Source: Sulfuricella sp.
Lineage (GTDB): Bacteria > Pseudomonadota > Gammaproteobacteria > Burkholderiales > Sulfuricellaceae
NCBI GenBank assembly: GCA_023266195.1
Contig: JAHFRP010000008.1
Location: 1 to 64,000 of the forward strand
Direction: 5' to 3'
Length of the DNA: 64,000 nt
Below are positions 3,000 through 59,813 of the stretch, one piece after another. Both the position numbers and the translations under genes were made by a program. The notes beneath the pieces are model-generated. The model made no database searches. It was not told the origin of the DNA and saw only the letters and a list, made by a program, of their open reading frames with translations. How positions within the stretch are numbered: the first letter of the stretch is position 1; every line of letters starts with the position of its first letter.

Positions 3000-3205
3000 C
3001 TAGGAGCCTGTCGGACTTAAGGAAATCGGCTGCAAATCCGCCTGGCCGGTCCGTATTTCGCCGCTTTCTTGGTCAATAGAATGACTATTGACCGGCAAAA
3101 CCGGCAAAATCTGTCCTCGCCCAGCCGAATTTTGCGAGCATCCGCTTCGCGGCTTGCCTGCTTGACCCTCTGCGCTTCGATTCTTCAAGTCCGACAGGCT
3201 CCTAG
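3000..3205. mobile_element. MITE copy 1 (206 bp, terminal inverted repeats, CTAG ends)
   Basis: The element begins CTAGGAGCCTGTCGGACTT and ends with its exact reverse complement. It matches the element at 5449-5655 along its whole length with only a handful of differences. Both ends sit in the palindrome CTAG, which is either a 4-bp target duplication or part of the terminal repeat. Inside is a perfect GGTCAATAG/CTATTGACC stem with a 5-base loop. It has no transposase, so it would need one supplied in trans. Its right end contains the TAG stop codon of dusC. Confidence 0.85.
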
Positions 3206-4131
3206 CGGCCTTCCAGCATCTTCTCCACCGCATCCGGGTCGCGTTCGACGCGTAGCGCCCGGTGCAGGGTCTCCGCTTCCGGGTAGGCGCTGCCCAGCAT
3301 GCCCAGCCATTGCTTGAGCCGCCCCGGCGCGTGGCGCAGATCCATCCGGGCGCGCAGCAGCGCATAGAAATCCACCACCCAGGGCAGCAGCTCGGGCCAG
3401 GTCATCGCCGTTGCCCCGGTTTTGATGCGCCGCGCCAGGTCCGGCCGGGTGATGGCGCCGCGTCCGGTCATCACGTCGGCGCAGCCGCTGACTCGGCGGA
3501 TTCGTTCCCAGTCCTGCGGCGTCCATACGTCGCCGTTCGCCACCAGCGGCAGTTTCACTTCCTCGCGGATGCGGGCGAGCCACTCCCAGCGCGCGGGCGG
3601 ACGGTAGCGGTCCGCACCGGTGCGGGCGTGGACGGTGAGTTCGCTGGCGCCGCCCGCTTCGACGGCGCGGGCGCAATCCAGCGTAAGTTCGGTATTCTCC
3701 AGGCCCAGGCGCATCTTGGCGGTGACGGGGACGCTTTGGGGTACGGCGCGGCGCACGGCGGCGACGATGGCGTGGATGCGCTCCGGCTCGACCAGCAAGG
3801 CCGCGCCGCCGCCGTGGCGGTTGACCATTGGTGCAGGGCAGCCGAAGTTGAGGTCGATGCCCGGCGCGCCGAGGCCGGCGATATGGGCGGCGTTCTCGGC
3901 CAAGCAGACCGGGTCGCTGCCGAGCAACTGCACCCGCACCGGCACCCCGGCCCGGGTGCGTCCGCCGTTGGCCAGTTCCGGCACGGTACGCAGGACGAAT
4001 TTTTCGGTGAGCAAATGATGGGTGACGCGCAGGAATTCGGCGACGCACAGGTCGAAGCCGCCCAGCCGCGTCAGCAGGTCGCGCATGGATTCGTCGGCAA
4101 GGCCTTCCATCGGGGCGAGGATCAGGCGCAT
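3202..4131 (-). CDS. dusC: tRNA-dihydrouridine synthase (DusC type)
   Basis: This 309-residue flavoenzyme reduces a uridine in tRNA to dihydrouridine (position 16 in the DusC subgroup). Visible features are the N-terminal LILAPMEGLADE strand of the FMN-binding TIM barrel, the catalytic-loop Cys in NFGCPAPMVNRHGGGAALL, the AKMRLGL strand and the phosphate-binding stretch VMTGRGAI. The CVAEFLRVT segment after the first helix favours DusC over DusA or DusB. I start at the ATG at 4131, because residues further upstream do not resemble the family. The TAG stop falls in the CTAG end of the adjacent MITE. Confidence 0.9.
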   Translation of the reverse strand: MRLILAPMEGLADESMRDLLTRLGGFDLCVAEFLRVTHHLLTEKFVLRTVPELANGGRTRAGVPVRVQLLGSDPVCLAENAAHIAGLGAPGIDLNFGCPAPMVNRHGGGAALLVEPERIHAIVAAVRRAVPQSVPVTAKMRLGLENTELTLDCARAVEAGGASELTVHARTGADRYRPPARWEWLARIREEVKLPLVANGDVWTPQDWERIRRVSGCADVMTGRGAITRPDLARRIKTGATAMTWPELLPWVVDFYALLRARMDLRHAPGRLKQWLGMLGSAYPEAETLHRALRVERDPDAVEKMLEGR

Positions 4132-5448: not shown

Positions 5449-5655
5449 CTAGGAGTCTGTCGGACTTGAAGGAAATCGGCTGCAAATCCGCCTGGCCGGT
5501 CCATATTTCGCCGCTTTTTTGGTCAATAGAACAACTATTGACCGGCAAAACCGGCAAAATCTGTCCTCGCCCAGCCGAATTTTGCGAGCATCCGCTTCGC
5601 GGCTTGCCTGCTTGACCCTCTGCGCTTCGATTCTTCAAGTCCGACAGGCTCCTAG
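5449..5655. mobile_element. MITE copy 2 (207 bp)
   Basis: This is the same element as at 3000-3205, in the same orientation, with a few substitutions and one extra base near the left end. It has CTAG at both ends and terminal repeats of about 19 bp, with one mismatch in the left arm (GAGTCTG instead of GAGCCTG). The internal GGTCAATAG stem is kept while its loop differs (AACAA instead of AATGA). Confidence 0.85.
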
Positions 5656-6015
5656 CCCTGCATACGATCTTTCACGAGCTTCAGCTCGTAGAAAGTCGGA
5701 GTCCTTTAGGGTACCCGCGAAACCGCACACTCCAGCCCGTCCAACTGAGGTTTCTTAGGATTATTGATTCGGCCATTAATTGAATATCGTCATTCCAGAC
5801 CCGACCCGGAATCCAGCGGCCTTGTCGATACTGGATTCACGCTTGCGTGGGACTGGCGGAGCTTCAATATTTAGTGGCCGTTCCCATGTTCAGGAAGGAT
5901 GCCGATTTTGCGGTTTCGTTCGTCGCGACGTACCGGAGGGCGGGTAGCTTTCCGATCAAATCCTGCTTTTTGCCTGATTGAAGCTTATTCGGCGTGTGCC
6001 TGAATATGGCCGCTT
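5656..6015. other. 360-bp gap without a convincing gene
   Basis: No reading frame here has family resemblance. It contains a short stem ACGAGCT/AGCTCGT near 5678-5693 and a degenerate dispersed repeat at about 5789-5850 (CGTCATTCC, then ACCCGGAATCCAG, then ACGCTTGCGTGGGA). It separates MITE copy 2 from the 3' end of recQ. Confidence 0.5.
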
Positions 6016-9291: not shown

Positions 9292-9348
9292 GTAGGAGCG
9301 GCCTCCCGGCCGCGATACGCCGTTTCGCGGCCGGGAGGCCGCTCCTAC
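9292..9348. repeat. perfect 24-bp-arm palindrome (REP family) between ccmB and ccmC
   Basis: The arms begin GTAGGAGCGGCCTCCCGG and are exact reverse complements around a 9-base loop. A half copy of the same sequence occurs at 49907-49930 after the second MNT gene. It would form a very stable hairpin in the ccm transcript, but there is no T-tract, so it is not an intrinsic terminator. Confidence 0.85.
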
Positions 9349-26529: not shown

Positions 26530-26622
26530 CTCGTTAACCGCGGAGGACGCGGAGGACTCGCGAGGAAGAACAATGCTTGTTGCCTTTCCGCTGCGTCCTC
26601 CGCGTCCTCTGCGGTGAAAATC
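26530..26622. repeat. CCGCGGAGG-family inverted repeat between argF and argG
   Basis: ACCGCGGAGGACGCGGAGGA on the left pairs with the GCGTCCTCCGCGTCCTCTGC tract on the right across about 50 bp. It is the most regular copy of this family in the window. Confidence 0.8.
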
Positions 26623-35871: not shown

Positions 35872-36030
35872 AGTCACCGCCGATTAACGCAGATAAACGC
35901 CGATTAACCGATATTGAGGCTGTAGGTGCGAATTCATTCGCACAATCCGTGCGAATGAATTCGCACCTACAGATGGTGGTAACACCTCGAAATACCGGCG
36001 TTTATCGGCGTTTATCGGCGGCAAATGAGC
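35872..36030. repeat. nested palindromes between the channel gene and metR
   Basis: The inner element at 35921-35971 is a perfect 23-bp stem with 5-base loop (arms TGTAGGTGCGAATTCATTCG plus CAC). It sits inside an outer repeat of CCGATTAACGCAGATAAACG type on the left and CGTTTATCGGCGTTTATCGG on the right. The outer family recurs at 44408-44506. The gap is about 200 bp and holds no gene. Confidence 0.85.
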
Positions 36031-42498: not shown

Positions 42499-42562
42499 GT
42501 AGGTCGGGCACCCCGTGCCCGACAGCGGCATGGGTTTGTCGGGCACAGGGTGCCCGACCTAC
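42499..42562. repeat. REP-type palindrome between ribD and ribE
   Basis: GTAGGTCGGGCACCC and its complement GGGTGCCCGACCTAC form a perfect 15-bp outer stem. An inner GTGCCCGAC/GTCGGGCAC pair allows an alternative fold. The element starts four bases after the ribD stop. Confidence 0.85.
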
Positions 42563-56476: not shown

Positions 56477-56553
56477 GTAGGTCGGTTCAAGCGTAGCGGA
56501 ACCGAAGATTCCGGCGCGGTAACGTCGGTTCCGCTACGCTTGAACCGACCTAC
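56477..56553. repeat. long palindrome downstream of lpdA
   Basis: GTAGGTCGGTTCAAGCGTAG starts a 29-bp arm that is matched by its complement after a 19-base loop. It shares the GTAGGTCGG end with the element at 42499. Lying nine bases past the lpdA stop, it may limit read-through or protect the mRNA 3' end. Confidence 0.85.
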
Positions 56554-56561
56554 GAGTCTGA

Positions 56562-58379
56562 TCACTTCCGCTTCGGCATCAAATCCGTGATGGTGCCTTC
56601 GACCATTTCCGCCGCGAAGCCCAGGGTTTCCGACAGGGTCGGGTGGGGGTGGACGGTGAGGGAAATATCCTGCGCGTCCGCACCCATTTCCAGCGCCAGC
56701 ACGGCTTCCGCGATCAGCTCGCCGGCATTGGTGCCGACGATGCCGGCGCCGAGGATGCGCTGGCTGTCCTTTTCCACGATCAGCTTGGTGATGCCTTCGT
56801 CGCGCCCGATGGACAGCGCCCGGCCGCTGGCCGCCCAGGGGAAAGAGGCTTTTTCGTAAGCGATGCCCTGCGCCTTGGCTTCGGTTTCGGTCAGCCCCAT
56901 CCAGGCGATTTCCGGGTCGGTGTAGGCGACCGAGGGGATGGTGCGGGCGTCGAACGCGGCCTTGTGGCCGGCGATCACTTCCGCCGCCACCTTGCCTTCG
57001 TGCACCGCCTTGTGCGCCAGCATCGGCTGGCCGACGATGTCGCCGATGGCGAAGATGTGCGGGACGTTGGTGCGCTGCTGTTTGTCCACCGGGATGAAGC
57101 CTTGCGCATCGACCTGGATGCCGGCGGCCTCGGCGTCGATCAGCTTGCCGTTGGGGCGGCGCCCCACCGCCACCAGCACGCGGTCGAACAGCTGCGGAGC
57201 CGGCGCCTTGTCGCCCTCGAAGGTGGCGAGAATGCCGTCGCTCCGCGCTTCCAGGCCGGCCACGCTGGTGTTGAGCAGGATGGATTCGTACTGTTTCTCG
57301 ATGCGCTTGGCGAGCGGCCTGACGATATCCGGGTCGGCGCCGGGGATCAGCTGAGCGCCGCGCTCCACCACGGTGATCTTCGATCCCAGCGCGTGGTAGA
57401 CGGTGGCCATCTCCAGGCCGATGATGCCGCCGCCGATGACCAGCAACCGCTTGGGCACGTCGGCCAGAGCCAGCGCGCCGGTCGAGTCCATCACCCGCGG
57501 GTCGTCCGGGAACGAGGGGATTTTCACCGCCTGCGAGCCGGCGGCGACGATGACGTTGTCGAACTCCACCGTGACTTCGCCCTCGTTGGCCGTCTCGACG
57601 CGGATGTGATGCGGCGCGACGAACTGGCCGTTGCCCAGGATCACCTTGATGTTGCGCTGCCGGGCGAGCTGCGTGAGCCCGCCGGTCAGCTTGGCGACCA
57701 CTCCCTGTTTCCAGGCGCGGATCTGGTCAATGTCGATTTGCGGCTGGCCGAAGCGCACGCCGTGATGGCTGACTTCCTCCGCTTCGGAAATGATCTTGGC
57801 GACATGCAGCAGGGCCTTGGAAGGAATGCAGCCGACGTTGAGGCAGACGCCGCCCAGGCTGGGGTGGCGCTCGATCAATATCACCTTCTTGCCCAGGTCG
57901 GCGGCGCGGAAGGCCGCGGTATAGCCGCCGGGGCCGGCGCCCAGCACCACTACGTCGGCATGGAGTTCGGAGCTGCTCGCAGGGGTCGAAATCCCCCCCA
58001 GCCCCCCTTTTTCAAAGGGGGGGGCGGATTCAGCCGAGGTTTCGAAGGACGTTGAAGATGCCTCCGTTCCTCCCATTGAAAAAGGGGGGCTAGGGGGGAT
58101 TTGAGTTTCAGCGGGGATTTGAGTTTCAGCCGGCGTCTCCACTCCCTCCAGCGTCAGGATCATCGATCCCTGCGACACCTTGTCGCCGACCTTGAGGTGG
58201 ATGGTTTTTACCGTGCCGGCGTGGGATGAGGGGATCTCCATCGTCGCCTTTTCGCTTTCCAGCGCCACCAGCGAATCGTCCTTCTGGACCTGGTCGCCCG
58301 GCTTCACCAGGATTTCGATGACATCGACGCTGTTGAAGTCGCCGATGTCCGGCACGGTGATTTCCACGATTTTGGCCAT
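56562..58379 (-). CDS. lpdA: dihydrolipoamide dehydrogenase (E3) with N-terminal lipoyl domain
   Basis: This is a 605-residue protein. Residues 1-80 form a lipoyl domain with the modified Lys in ALESEKATMEIPSS. Residues 82-145 are a flexible linker containing IPPSPPFSMGG and APPFEKGGLGGI, peptides that look repeat-derived. The flavoprotein follows: VVLGAGPGGYTAAFRAADLG, the redox disulfide in GGVCLNVGCIPSKALLHVAK, NAD site VIGGGIIGLEMATVYHALG and the C-terminal HPHPTLSETLGFAAEM with the active-site His. It serves the pyruvate dehydrogenase complex encoded upstream by aceE and aceF. Confidence 0.97.
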   Translation of the reverse strand: MAKIVEITVPDIGDFNSVDVIEILVKPGDQVQKDDSLVALESEKATMEIPSSHAGTVKTIHLKVGDKVSQGSMILTLEGVETPAETQIPAETQIPPSPPFSMGGTEASSTSFETSAESAPPFEKGGLGGISTPASSSELHADVVVLGAGPGGYTAAFRAADLGKKVILIERHPSLGGVCLNVGCIPSKALLHVAKIISEAEEVSHHGVRFGQPQIDIDQIRAWKQGVVAKLTGGLTQLARQRNIKVILGNGQFVAPHHIRVETANEGEVTVEFDNVIVAAGSQAVKIPSFPDDPRVMDSTGALALADVPKRLLVIGGGIIGLEMATVYHALGSKITVVERGAQLIPGADPDIVRPLAKRIEKQYESILLNTSVAGLEARSDGILATFEGDKAPAPQLFDRVLVAVGRRPNGKLIDAEAAGIQVDAQGFIPVDKQQRTNVPHIFAIGDIVGQPMLAHKAVHEGKVAAEVIAGHKAAFDARTIPSVAYTDPEIAWMGLTETEAKAQGIAYEKASFPWAASGRALSIGRDEGITKLIVEKDSQRILGAGIVGTNAGELIAEAVLALEMGADAQDISLTVHPHPTLSETLGFAAEMVEGTITDLMPKRK

Positions 58380-58397
58380 GAGTATTCCTTAAAAGTC

Positions 58398-58482
58398 TTT
58401 CACCGCAGAGGACGCGGGGGACGCGGAGGAGTTCAAGGGCTTCCTCAGCGCCCTCTGCGTCCTCCGCGGTTAATCTTCTATT
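58398..58482. repeat. CCGCGGAGG-family inverted repeat between aceF and lpdA
   Basis: CACCGCAGAGGACGCGGGGG and CTCTGCGTCCTCCGCGGTTA are the two arms, separated by about 40 bp. It belongs to the same family as at 17296, 25199 and 26530. Confidence 0.75.
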
Positions 58483-58488
58483 TGTTCG

Positions 58489-59796
58489 TTAAAGCAGCAG
58501 CCTGCGCACGTCCGCCAGCAACTGGCCCAGATAGGTGATGAAGCGCGCGCCCTGGGCGCCGTCGATCACGCGGTGGTCGTAGGACAGCGACAGCGGCAGC
58601 ATCAGGCGCGGCACGAATTCCTTGCCGTTCCACACCGGCTTCATCACCGCGCGGGAGATGCCGAGCACTGCCACTTCAGGCAGGTTGATGATGGGGGTGA
58701 AGAACGAGCCGCCGATACCGCCCAGGCTGGACAGGCTGATGCAGCCGCCCTGCATTTCGCCGGGGGTGAGCTTCTTGTCGCGCGCCTTCTGGCTCAGCGT
58801 CATCAGCTCGCGCGCCAGCTCCAGCACGCCTTTCCCGTCGGCGTCGCGGATCACCGGGACGACCAGGCCGTCGGGCGTGTCCACCGCCATGCCGATGTGG
58901 AAGTAATGCTTGAACACCAGGCTCTCGCCATCCGCCGAGAGCGAAGCGTTGAAGTCCGGGTGGGCCTTGAGCGCGGCCACCATGGCCTTGATCAGGAAGG
59001 CGGGCAGGGTGAGGCGCACGCCCTGCTTTTCGGCCTCCGCGCTCATTGACTTGCGGAAGGCTTCGAGCTCGGTGATGTCGACTTCCTCGTGCTGGGTGAC
59101 GTGGGGCGCGGTGACCCAGTTGCGGTGCAGGTTGGCGCCGGAGACCTTCTTGATCTTGGTGAGCGGCCTGACCTCTACCGCGCCGAACTTGGCGAAGTCC
59201 ACTTGCGGCATTTCCAGCACCGACAGGCCCATGCCACCGCCCGCCGCGCGCGGATGAGCCAGCTCATGTTTGACGAACGCCTGCACGTCTTCTTTCAGGA
59301 TGCGGCGCTTCGGCCCGGAACCGTTGACCAGCACGAGGTTGACGCCGAGCTCGCGGGCGAAGGCGCGCACCGAGGGGCTGGCGTGGACTTTGGCGGCGCT
59401 TTCTATGTGGTCGGCATGGGGCGCCGGGGTTGGCGTCGGTGCGGGCACGGCAGCCTGGATCGGGGCGGCGACCTGCGTTGCGGCGGGGGCTGGCGGTGGC
59501 GCGGGCTGCGGCTCTCCCCCCTTTGCAAAAGGGGGGCTGGGGGGGATTTCAGCCTCTGCTACTTCCATCAGCAGGATCAGGCTGCCTTCGTTGACCTTGT
59601 CGCCCACCTTGGCGCGTACCGCCGTGATCTTCCCGCTCCAGGGCGAGGGGATGTCCATGGTGGCTTTTTCGCTTTCCAGCGTGATCAGGGTTTCTTCCGC
59701 CTTGACGACGTCGCCTTCCCTGACCGGAATTTCAATGACGTCCACCGCATCGAAATTGCCGATGTCGGGAACGCGGACTTCTTTTATTGTTGGCAC
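58489..59796 (-). CDS. aceF: dihydrolipoamide acetyltransferase (E2) of pyruvate dehydrogenase
   Basis: This is a 435-residue protein with a single lipoyl domain (ITLESEKATMDIPSP) and an Ala/Pro linker with IPPSPPFAKGG followed by PQPAPPPAPAATQVAA. The E3-binding domain is SPSVRAFARELGVNL, then GPKRRILKEDVQAF, and the catalytic domain ends LSYDHRVIDGAQGARF. I choose the GTG at 59796 (PTIKEVRVPDIG) because AAGGAGG sits seven bases upstream; the TTG two codons earlier abuts it. It links aceE and lpdA functionally. Confidence 0.95.
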   Translation of the reverse strand: MPTIKEVRVPDIGNFDAVDVIEIPVREGDVVKAEETLITLESEKATMDIPSPWSGKITAVRAKVGDKVNEGSLILLMEVAEAEIPPSPPFAKGGEPQPAPPPAPAATQVAAPIQAAVPAPTPTPAPHADHIESAAKVHASPSVRAFARELGVNLVLVNGSGPKRRILKEDVQAFVKHELAHPRAAGGGMGLSVLEMPQVDFAKFGAVEVRPLTKIKKVSGANLHRNWVTAPHVTQHEEVDITELEAFRKSMSAEAEKQGVRLTLPAFLIKAMVAALKAHPDFNASLSADGESLVFKHYFHIGMAVDTPDGLVVPVIRDADGKGVLELARELMTLSQKARDKKLTPGEMQGGCISLSSLGGIGGSFFTPIINLPEVAVLGISRAVMKPVWNGKEFVPRLMLPLSLSYDHRVIDGAQGARFITYLGQLLADVRRLLL

Positions 59797-59813
59797 TTGC
59801 AATCCTCCTTGCA

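Follow-up and report, generated by a model that had tools for sequence, protein, structure and literature searches.

A short palindromic repeat lies in frame in two adjoining genes of the pyruvate dehydrogenase (PDH) complex, lpdA (E3) and aceF (E2), in the 64,000-nucleotide stretch of Sulfuricella sp. analyzed here (the window; positions 1 to 64,000 of contig JAHFRP010000008.1, assembly GCA_023266195.1). In both genes it occupies the linker that follows the lipoyl domain. The repeat belongs to a genome-wide family resembling the repetitive extragenic palindromic (REP) sequences, and it is very probably a selfish element that inserts widely and survives within genes only at tolerant linkers and loops. 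In the following, G000 denotes the genome studied here, the other G numbers denote other genomes, and L numbers denote loci or fetched stretches.

Palindrome units in the linkers of LpdA and AceF

The two genes adjoin on the minus strand, and their three palindrome units were located by matches to the core of the repeat:

56562..58379, minus strand: lpdA, dihydrolipoyl dehydrogenase (E3) with an N-terminal lipoyl domain, 605 aa (TIGR01350, 502.5 bits, above cut-off)
57989..58022, plus strand: palindrome unit 1 in lpdA, core 58003-58021, read on the minus strand as APPFEKGGLGGI (residues 119-130)
58070..58102, minus strand: palindrome unit 2 in lpdA, in the opposite orientation, core 58070-58088 (2 mismatches), read as IPPSPPFSMGG (residues 94-104)
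58489..59802, minus strand: aceF, dihydrolipoyllysine acetyltransferase (E2), 437 aa (TIGR01348, 583.5 bits, above cut-off)
59514..59553, minus strand: single palindrome unit in aceF (GCTGAAATCCCCCCCAGCCCCCCTTTTGCAAAGGGGGGAG), core 59517-59535, read as (A)EIPPSPPFAKGGE directly after the lipoyl domain

The LpdA translation, which contains ETQIPPSPPFSMGGTEASSTSFETSAESAPPFEKGGLGGISTP, aligns over residues 4-605 with the solved homologue 5u25, and the inverted pair of units sits in the linker that connects its lipoyl domain to the flavoprotein domain. In the AlphaFold2 model, the lipoyl domain is folded (with its last strand at 73-79) and the flavoprotein domain starts at residue 138. Both peptides fell between them, within residues 82-135, where the predicted local distance difference test (pLDDT) score was below 50. 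An 18-nt tandem duplication (PAETQI PAETQI) lies just upstream, in the reading direction, of unit 2. The AceF translation contains AEAEIPPSPPFAKGGEPQP and carries IPPSPPFAKGG at the start of its linker. The initial annotation had noticed these linker peptides in LpdA and AceF and had attributed them to one and the same palindrome; both statements were borne out, with a core behind each of the three peptides. When the core (CCCCCTTTNNNAAAGGGGG) was searched in the window with up to three mismatches, seven overlapping matches were obtained, against 0.31 +/- 0.56 in 100 dinucleotide shuffles (maximum 3), and all seven correspond to the two sites in lpdA and the one in aceF.

A genome-wide repeat family

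The unit measures approximately 37-42 bp and has the form AAATCCCCCC[Y]A[R]CCCCCC-TTTNNN-AAAGGGGGG. Allowing at most one mismatch, the core was found at 89 sites in the 3.12-Mb genome, with none for a reversed-pattern control, and the longer asymmetric unit, with at most three mismatches, gave 84 rows (some of them one-base shifts of a single copy) against a control of 0. In 38 stretches around the genome matches and in the window, 93 cores were resolved at 51 loci. Most of them form inverted pairs with a spacing of about 75 bp. Outside these stretches, the genome was covered by the pattern search only. The head of the unit, AAATCC, recurs together with the palindrome at tens of loci outside lpdA and aceF, also in other reading frames. 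The unit is a genome-wide REP-like repeat. Beyond this genome its distribution is patchy: with up to two mismatches it occurs in 12 of 299 genomes of the phylum, the studied genome included, and in 9 of 154 genera, one distant genome of this draw being as rich in units as G000. Copies are bunched on a few contigs (C78 in G010, C105 and C141 in G011, C16 in G000), which are perhaps islands or plasmids.

Naked units and MITE-like composites

A flank classifier divided the 51 loci into 24 type I composites, 11 type II composites, and 16 naked loci, one of which (L105:394) is a chance match. The composites are about 170 bp long and each encloses a pair of units; their ends, determined by eye and degraded in many copies, are CTAGTAGTCAGTC / GACTGACTACTAG in type I and CTACTTTGTCAGA / TCTGACAAAGTA in type II. 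Both types have the terminal inverted repeats, the short length, and the lack of coding capacity that are typical of miniature inverted-repeat transposable elements (MITEs). Copies outside recognized proteins, whose absence the initial annotation would have counted against its reading, are plentiful: 35 of the 51 loci are MITE-like.

The two classes differ in where they reside. Once L105:394 was dropped, 6 of the 15 naked loci were inside recognized proteins, compared with 0 of the 35 composites (Fisher p = 3e-4). The six proteins are LpdA, AceF, IleRS, HrpA, HypF, and HsdS, the last assigned from Pfam and sequence only. No composite was found between recognized parts of one protein; two stand upstream of domains in stop-to-stop frames (L081 and L085), and Pfam scans returned no family for the other frames around composites. 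The Pfam check covered 30 of the 54 core-holding frames of at least 280 aa. For the 35 composites, frames of at least 80 aa reaching at least 25 aa past the core on both sides were listed, and the nine that had previously been unscanned were scanned, with no family found. Of the six possible frames, the consensus unit leaves three open and the aceF copy five, whereas one copy of each composite leaves none. This suggests that only naked units occur within proteins because the naked unit is open in most frames and the composites in none.

Several frames were left out of the in-protein count, as they could represent junctions between genes or leaders that are not translated. They are a DUF559-PrmC frame (L101), a two-ATPase ABC frame (L095), the treZ/malQ junction (L113), the C-terminus of HlyD (L104), and the N-terminal stretches of stop-to-stop frames at dnaE (L078), acrB plus HlyD (L085), and EAL/GGDEF (L081). 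In the first of these (L101:1565-2932, minus strand), the unit joins the DUF559 frame to prmC without a stop, and this may be a gene fusion made by the element or an open junction.

Units in other proteins and repeated use of the same sites

Units also lie in frame in IleRS, HrpA, HypF, and HsdS, and relatives have empty sites in the first three of these proteins. This lends support to the suggestion, made in the initial annotation by analogy with Rickettsia, that the palindrome may spread in frame into tolerant protein regions. The IleRS site is a turn in the catalytic region, after QWFIGM. Its position was fixed by aligning the sequence to the solved chain 8c9e, in which two residues separate the aligned blocks; the AlphaFold2 model (mean pLDDT 45) was not used. 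Most relatives have a short loop at this position (14 of 18 readable sequences from 20 loci). The unit pair is present only in G000, where it makes the protein about 32 residues longer than in the congeners. The G001 protein (L202) begins its insert with the identical 13 nt, GAAAAATCCCCCC, and continues with a second palindrome, GGGTACGGCTTCAGCCGTACATGTCAGGCTGAAGCCTGAC, which is also present in G000 at L080; in this reading frame, one palindrome seems to have entered at what was left of another. A different, CAGTCAG-rich and internally repetitive insert occupies the loop in G021 and G014.

The HypF site is an interdomain linker, with inserts in G000 and G007 and none in the other eight of the ten readable loci (three further loci were not readable by the motif used). 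G000 HypF contains three detected cores in tandem, followed by residues 278-313, which match other places in the genome, and the G007 insert reads NPPQPPFFKGGGASSPLCKRGGRGGF. Among 14 aligned HrpA sequences, the first loop carries the unit pair in G000, a different repeat-like insert (PSPQPSP..GEGA...SPL.GEGWGE or its end) in five relatives, and no insert in eight; the second loop has SPLPNPLP-type inserts in three (G000, G006, and G010). The HypF, HrpA, and IleRS sites are hit again in relatives, partly by unrelated repeats. Independently of the palindrome unit, a second repeat-like family (PSPQPSPxxGEGA, SPLPNPLPxxGEGAN) occurs in two HrpA loops of several congeners (L251-L262) and at L105 in G000.

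E2 and E3 linkers in relatives and in distant taxa

Eleven close genomes belong to the same genus as G000. Units were present in 2 of 29 readable E3 linkers (30 loci) and, within the genus, in two of eight: those of G000 and of G010, where the unit has decayed (IPPSPPSVKGG...APHIEGGGIS). The E2 linker carries the unit in three of nine members of the genus, namely G000, G004 (a pair), and G008 (a decayed pair). In another genus, two of six E2 linkers contain a related palindrome that lies more toward the linker's far end (G020, NPPQPPLVRGGE; G012, PSVPLVRGGA). The five PDH-linker loci seen compare with about 0.1 expected (P ~1e-7, or 5e-6 with four loci); these values are orders of magnitude, based on about 124 loci counted by hand in eight congeners that have PDH, with the G008 number guessed from row totals, and on an assumed tolerant target of 300 kb.

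A survey of 80 named loci, mostly from Proteobacteria, yielded 64 E2 and 52 E3 linkers that could be parsed. The motif was flagged in two of the E2 linkers and in none of the E3 linkers. The credible case is a betaproteobacterium (L121) with PPPSPPLAKGG over CCCCCATTGGCTAAGGGGGGG; the second match, PPPLEDGGE in L161, looks accidental and was set aside. A motif conserved across distant E2 and E3 linkers, which the initial annotation had named as the finding that would speak against a mobile origin, is rejected by this survey, with its single credible case, and most congeners also lack the motif.

In a tree built from E3, E2, and IleRS blocks, G000, G008, and G003 formed one group (support 0.89), and a second group comprised G004, G002, G010, G005, and G011. 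For E3, two gains are cheaper than a single gain, which would have to be followed by about four losses. For E2 there is a tie at three events, between three gains on the one hand and a gain plus two losses on the other. The empty E2 linkers of G003 and of G002, G005, G010, and G011 have a common GK..A...KP-like stretch, from which the ancestral E2 linker probably lacked the unit.

Proposed mechanism and alternative explanations

We propose that a REP-like palindromic repeat would have spread through the genomes of the genus, by transposition or template switching, both as naked units (single or paired) and within the two composites. Naked units could enter coding sequence without stopping translation, which composites could not. 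Selection would then clear nearly all coding insertions, and in-frame ones in disordered linkers and surface loops would stay where extra Pro/Gly-rich residues are tolerated: in the PDH E2 and E3 linkers, the IleRS turn, the HrpA loop, the HypF linker, and HsdS. The inserts would be near-neutral and most gains independent. Tolerance would be a property of the protein site, which would explain why homologous sites were struck more than once in different species, in part by unrelated repeats.

Several observations weigh against this proposal. No REP-associated tyrosine transposase (RAYT) or other transposase was found tied to the unit, and L115, a RAYT-like candidate, scored 70.4 bits against NF047646, below the REP-transposase cut-off of 80. 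The PDH linkers are also not a target everywhere, since the E2 and E3 linkers read in G321, which is unrelated and has 69 unit rows, are free of the unit. Finally, an exact 44-nt stretch is common to aceF of G000 and G008, and it could mean shared descent or exchange.

With respect to a mover, none of the six Y1 loci in G000 (PF01797; five over the cut-off) has a true unit copy in its flanks up to 1.5 kb. A REP mobilized by a RAYT, in the form of a REPtron in which the Y1 gene is flanked by its own palindrome, was rejected on the basis of these flanks, a result that leaves room for action in trans. Two Y1/RAYT-like transposase copies (L114 and L115; G000:C12:175158-175484 and G000:C17:156573-156899) are 98.95% identical over 858 bp. 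The ends of these near-identical copies are unlike the palindrome unit, and a scan of their flanks for inverted repeats, possibly too strict, found nothing.

Single old insertions in E2 and in E3, inherited and later lost or replaced in several species, are an unlikely source of the pattern. The 44 identical nucleotides, which stand at the same codon in G000 and G008, and the tied event counts for E2 are what such a history could leave behind, but the empty GK..A...KP-like linkers are probably ancestral and the E3 distribution demands the costlier series of losses. Moreover, the third codon positions of the lipoyl domain are 70% identical between G000 and G008, so that the 44-nt identity indicates a unit younger than the split of the two genomes, or exchanged between them.

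Exchange by recombination or gene conversion through the homologous lipoyl domains, which would have carried the unit from the linker of one subunit (E2 or E3) to that of the other, or across species boundaries, is also improbable. In the 16 genomes searched, the exact 26-mer GCTGAAATCCCCCCCAGCCCCCCTTT is confined to aceF of G000 and G008, with one mismatch in lpdA of G010, and the insertion point relative to the lipoyl domain is identical in these three genes, as such a transfer would predict. However, the codons flanking the 44-nt identity differ (GTA GCA versus GTC GCC), and one-mismatch copies of a GCTG-prefixed variant (three elsewhere in G000 and a single one in each of G011 and G001) put a free-standing source at hand. 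Given these scattered copies, independent insertion of one subfamily is the simplest reading, although not a proven one.

It is rather doubtful that the palindromes act as a standing supply of ready-made linkers. In this reading, their Pro/Gly-rich frames would be captured time and again and then retained for the useful length or altered flexibility that they give to the swinging-arm linkers of E2 and E3 and to other joints between domains. If this were true, selfish repeats would be a cause of convergent evolution in the linkers of paralogous parts of a single complex.

There is little chance that the palindromes serve as RNA hairpins that tune subunit ratios in the aceF-lpdA transcript, with the peptide as a by-product. 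The lpdA pair does fold into a single long hairpin (-39.3 kcal/mol with DNA parameters; z -6.1 versus shuffles), but the aceF unit alone folds with a z of only -1.2, most congeners lack the insertions, and no Rfam family reached the gathering score in this stretch, the sub-gathering matches being mostly miRNA models that fit hairpins. Plain drift of Pro/Ala/Gly-rich linkers without any DNA element, plausible only in that PDH linkers are naturally rich in Pro and Ala, is refuted by the DNA-level family, with its head and palindrome at tens of outside loci and in other frames.

Other repeats in the window

An inverted dimer of a GTAG-type repeat (GTAGGTCGGTTCAAGCGTAGCGGAACCGA...) lies at 56477-56553, 9 bases past the lpdA stop, and other GTAGG palindromes were found at 9292-9348, 35920-35972, and 42499-42562. 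The intergenic gap between aceF and lpdA contains a different inverted repeat (CCGCAGAGGACGCGG type, 58398-58473), which occurs again at 26534-26619. A 188-nt direct repeat is present at 3019-3206 and 5469-5656 (98% identity). Its inverted ends, CTAGGAGCCTGTCGGACTT, are found at 3000-3024 and close by, and it resembles a further MITE or a small insertion sequence remnant.

Relation to known systems

Rickettsia palindromic elements (RPEs) are palindromic repeats found in frame within unrelated genes and also outside genes (PMC10969869, PMC3733652). The unit described here likewise lies in frame in several unrelated genes and at many loci outside recognized proteins. It differs in its host, a betaproteobacterium, and in its size, the in-gene unit being about 37-42 bp, alone or paired, whereas RPEs are about 150 bp (PMC10969869). 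In its behavior, the unit resembles the Rickettsia elements.

Intragenic GTAG/CGTC REPs, reported in 2013, are short palindromes, single or in dimers, that are read through as part of many bacterial proteins without loss of frame, tRNA synthetases and RNA helicases among them; in Xanthomonas recB, an intragenic REP occupies about the same site in two species (PMC3733652). Like these 20-40 bp palindromes, the unit (about 37-42 bp) has many copies and frequent inverted dimers. In contrast, it starts with AAATCC(C)..., and by eye no GTAG/CGTC tag forms a shared end of the listed copies. The congeners studied here also show empty sites, repeated insertions into homologous linkers, the stacking of two palindromes, and the contrast between composite and naked loci, and PDH is not named in the parts of PMC3733652 that were consulted.

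Intragenic fusions of small mobile sequences have been reported in enterobacteria (PMC10969869, PMC2759123). The type I and type II composites look similar to MITEs in their terminal inverted repeats, but here full composites were found only outside recognized proteins and the inner units alone inside them. Within the limits of the search terms used and of the matches listed, no report of the unit or of palindromes in PDH linkers was found in the open-access library searched. In-frame palindromes are already known as a kind; new are the sequence family, the repeated insertions into homologous linkers, and the split between naked and MITE-like forms.

These results extend protein-coding palindromes, best known from Rickettsia and from the GTAG/CGTC REPs, to another sequence family. 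In practice, the inserts appear as unusual peptides in protein annotations and may lead alignments astray. The congeneric set allows filled and empty sites to be compared in the same proteins. Whether such inserts are only tolerated or shape linkers is an old question that can thereby be put to a direct test in PDH, IleRS, and other enzymes that are well understood.

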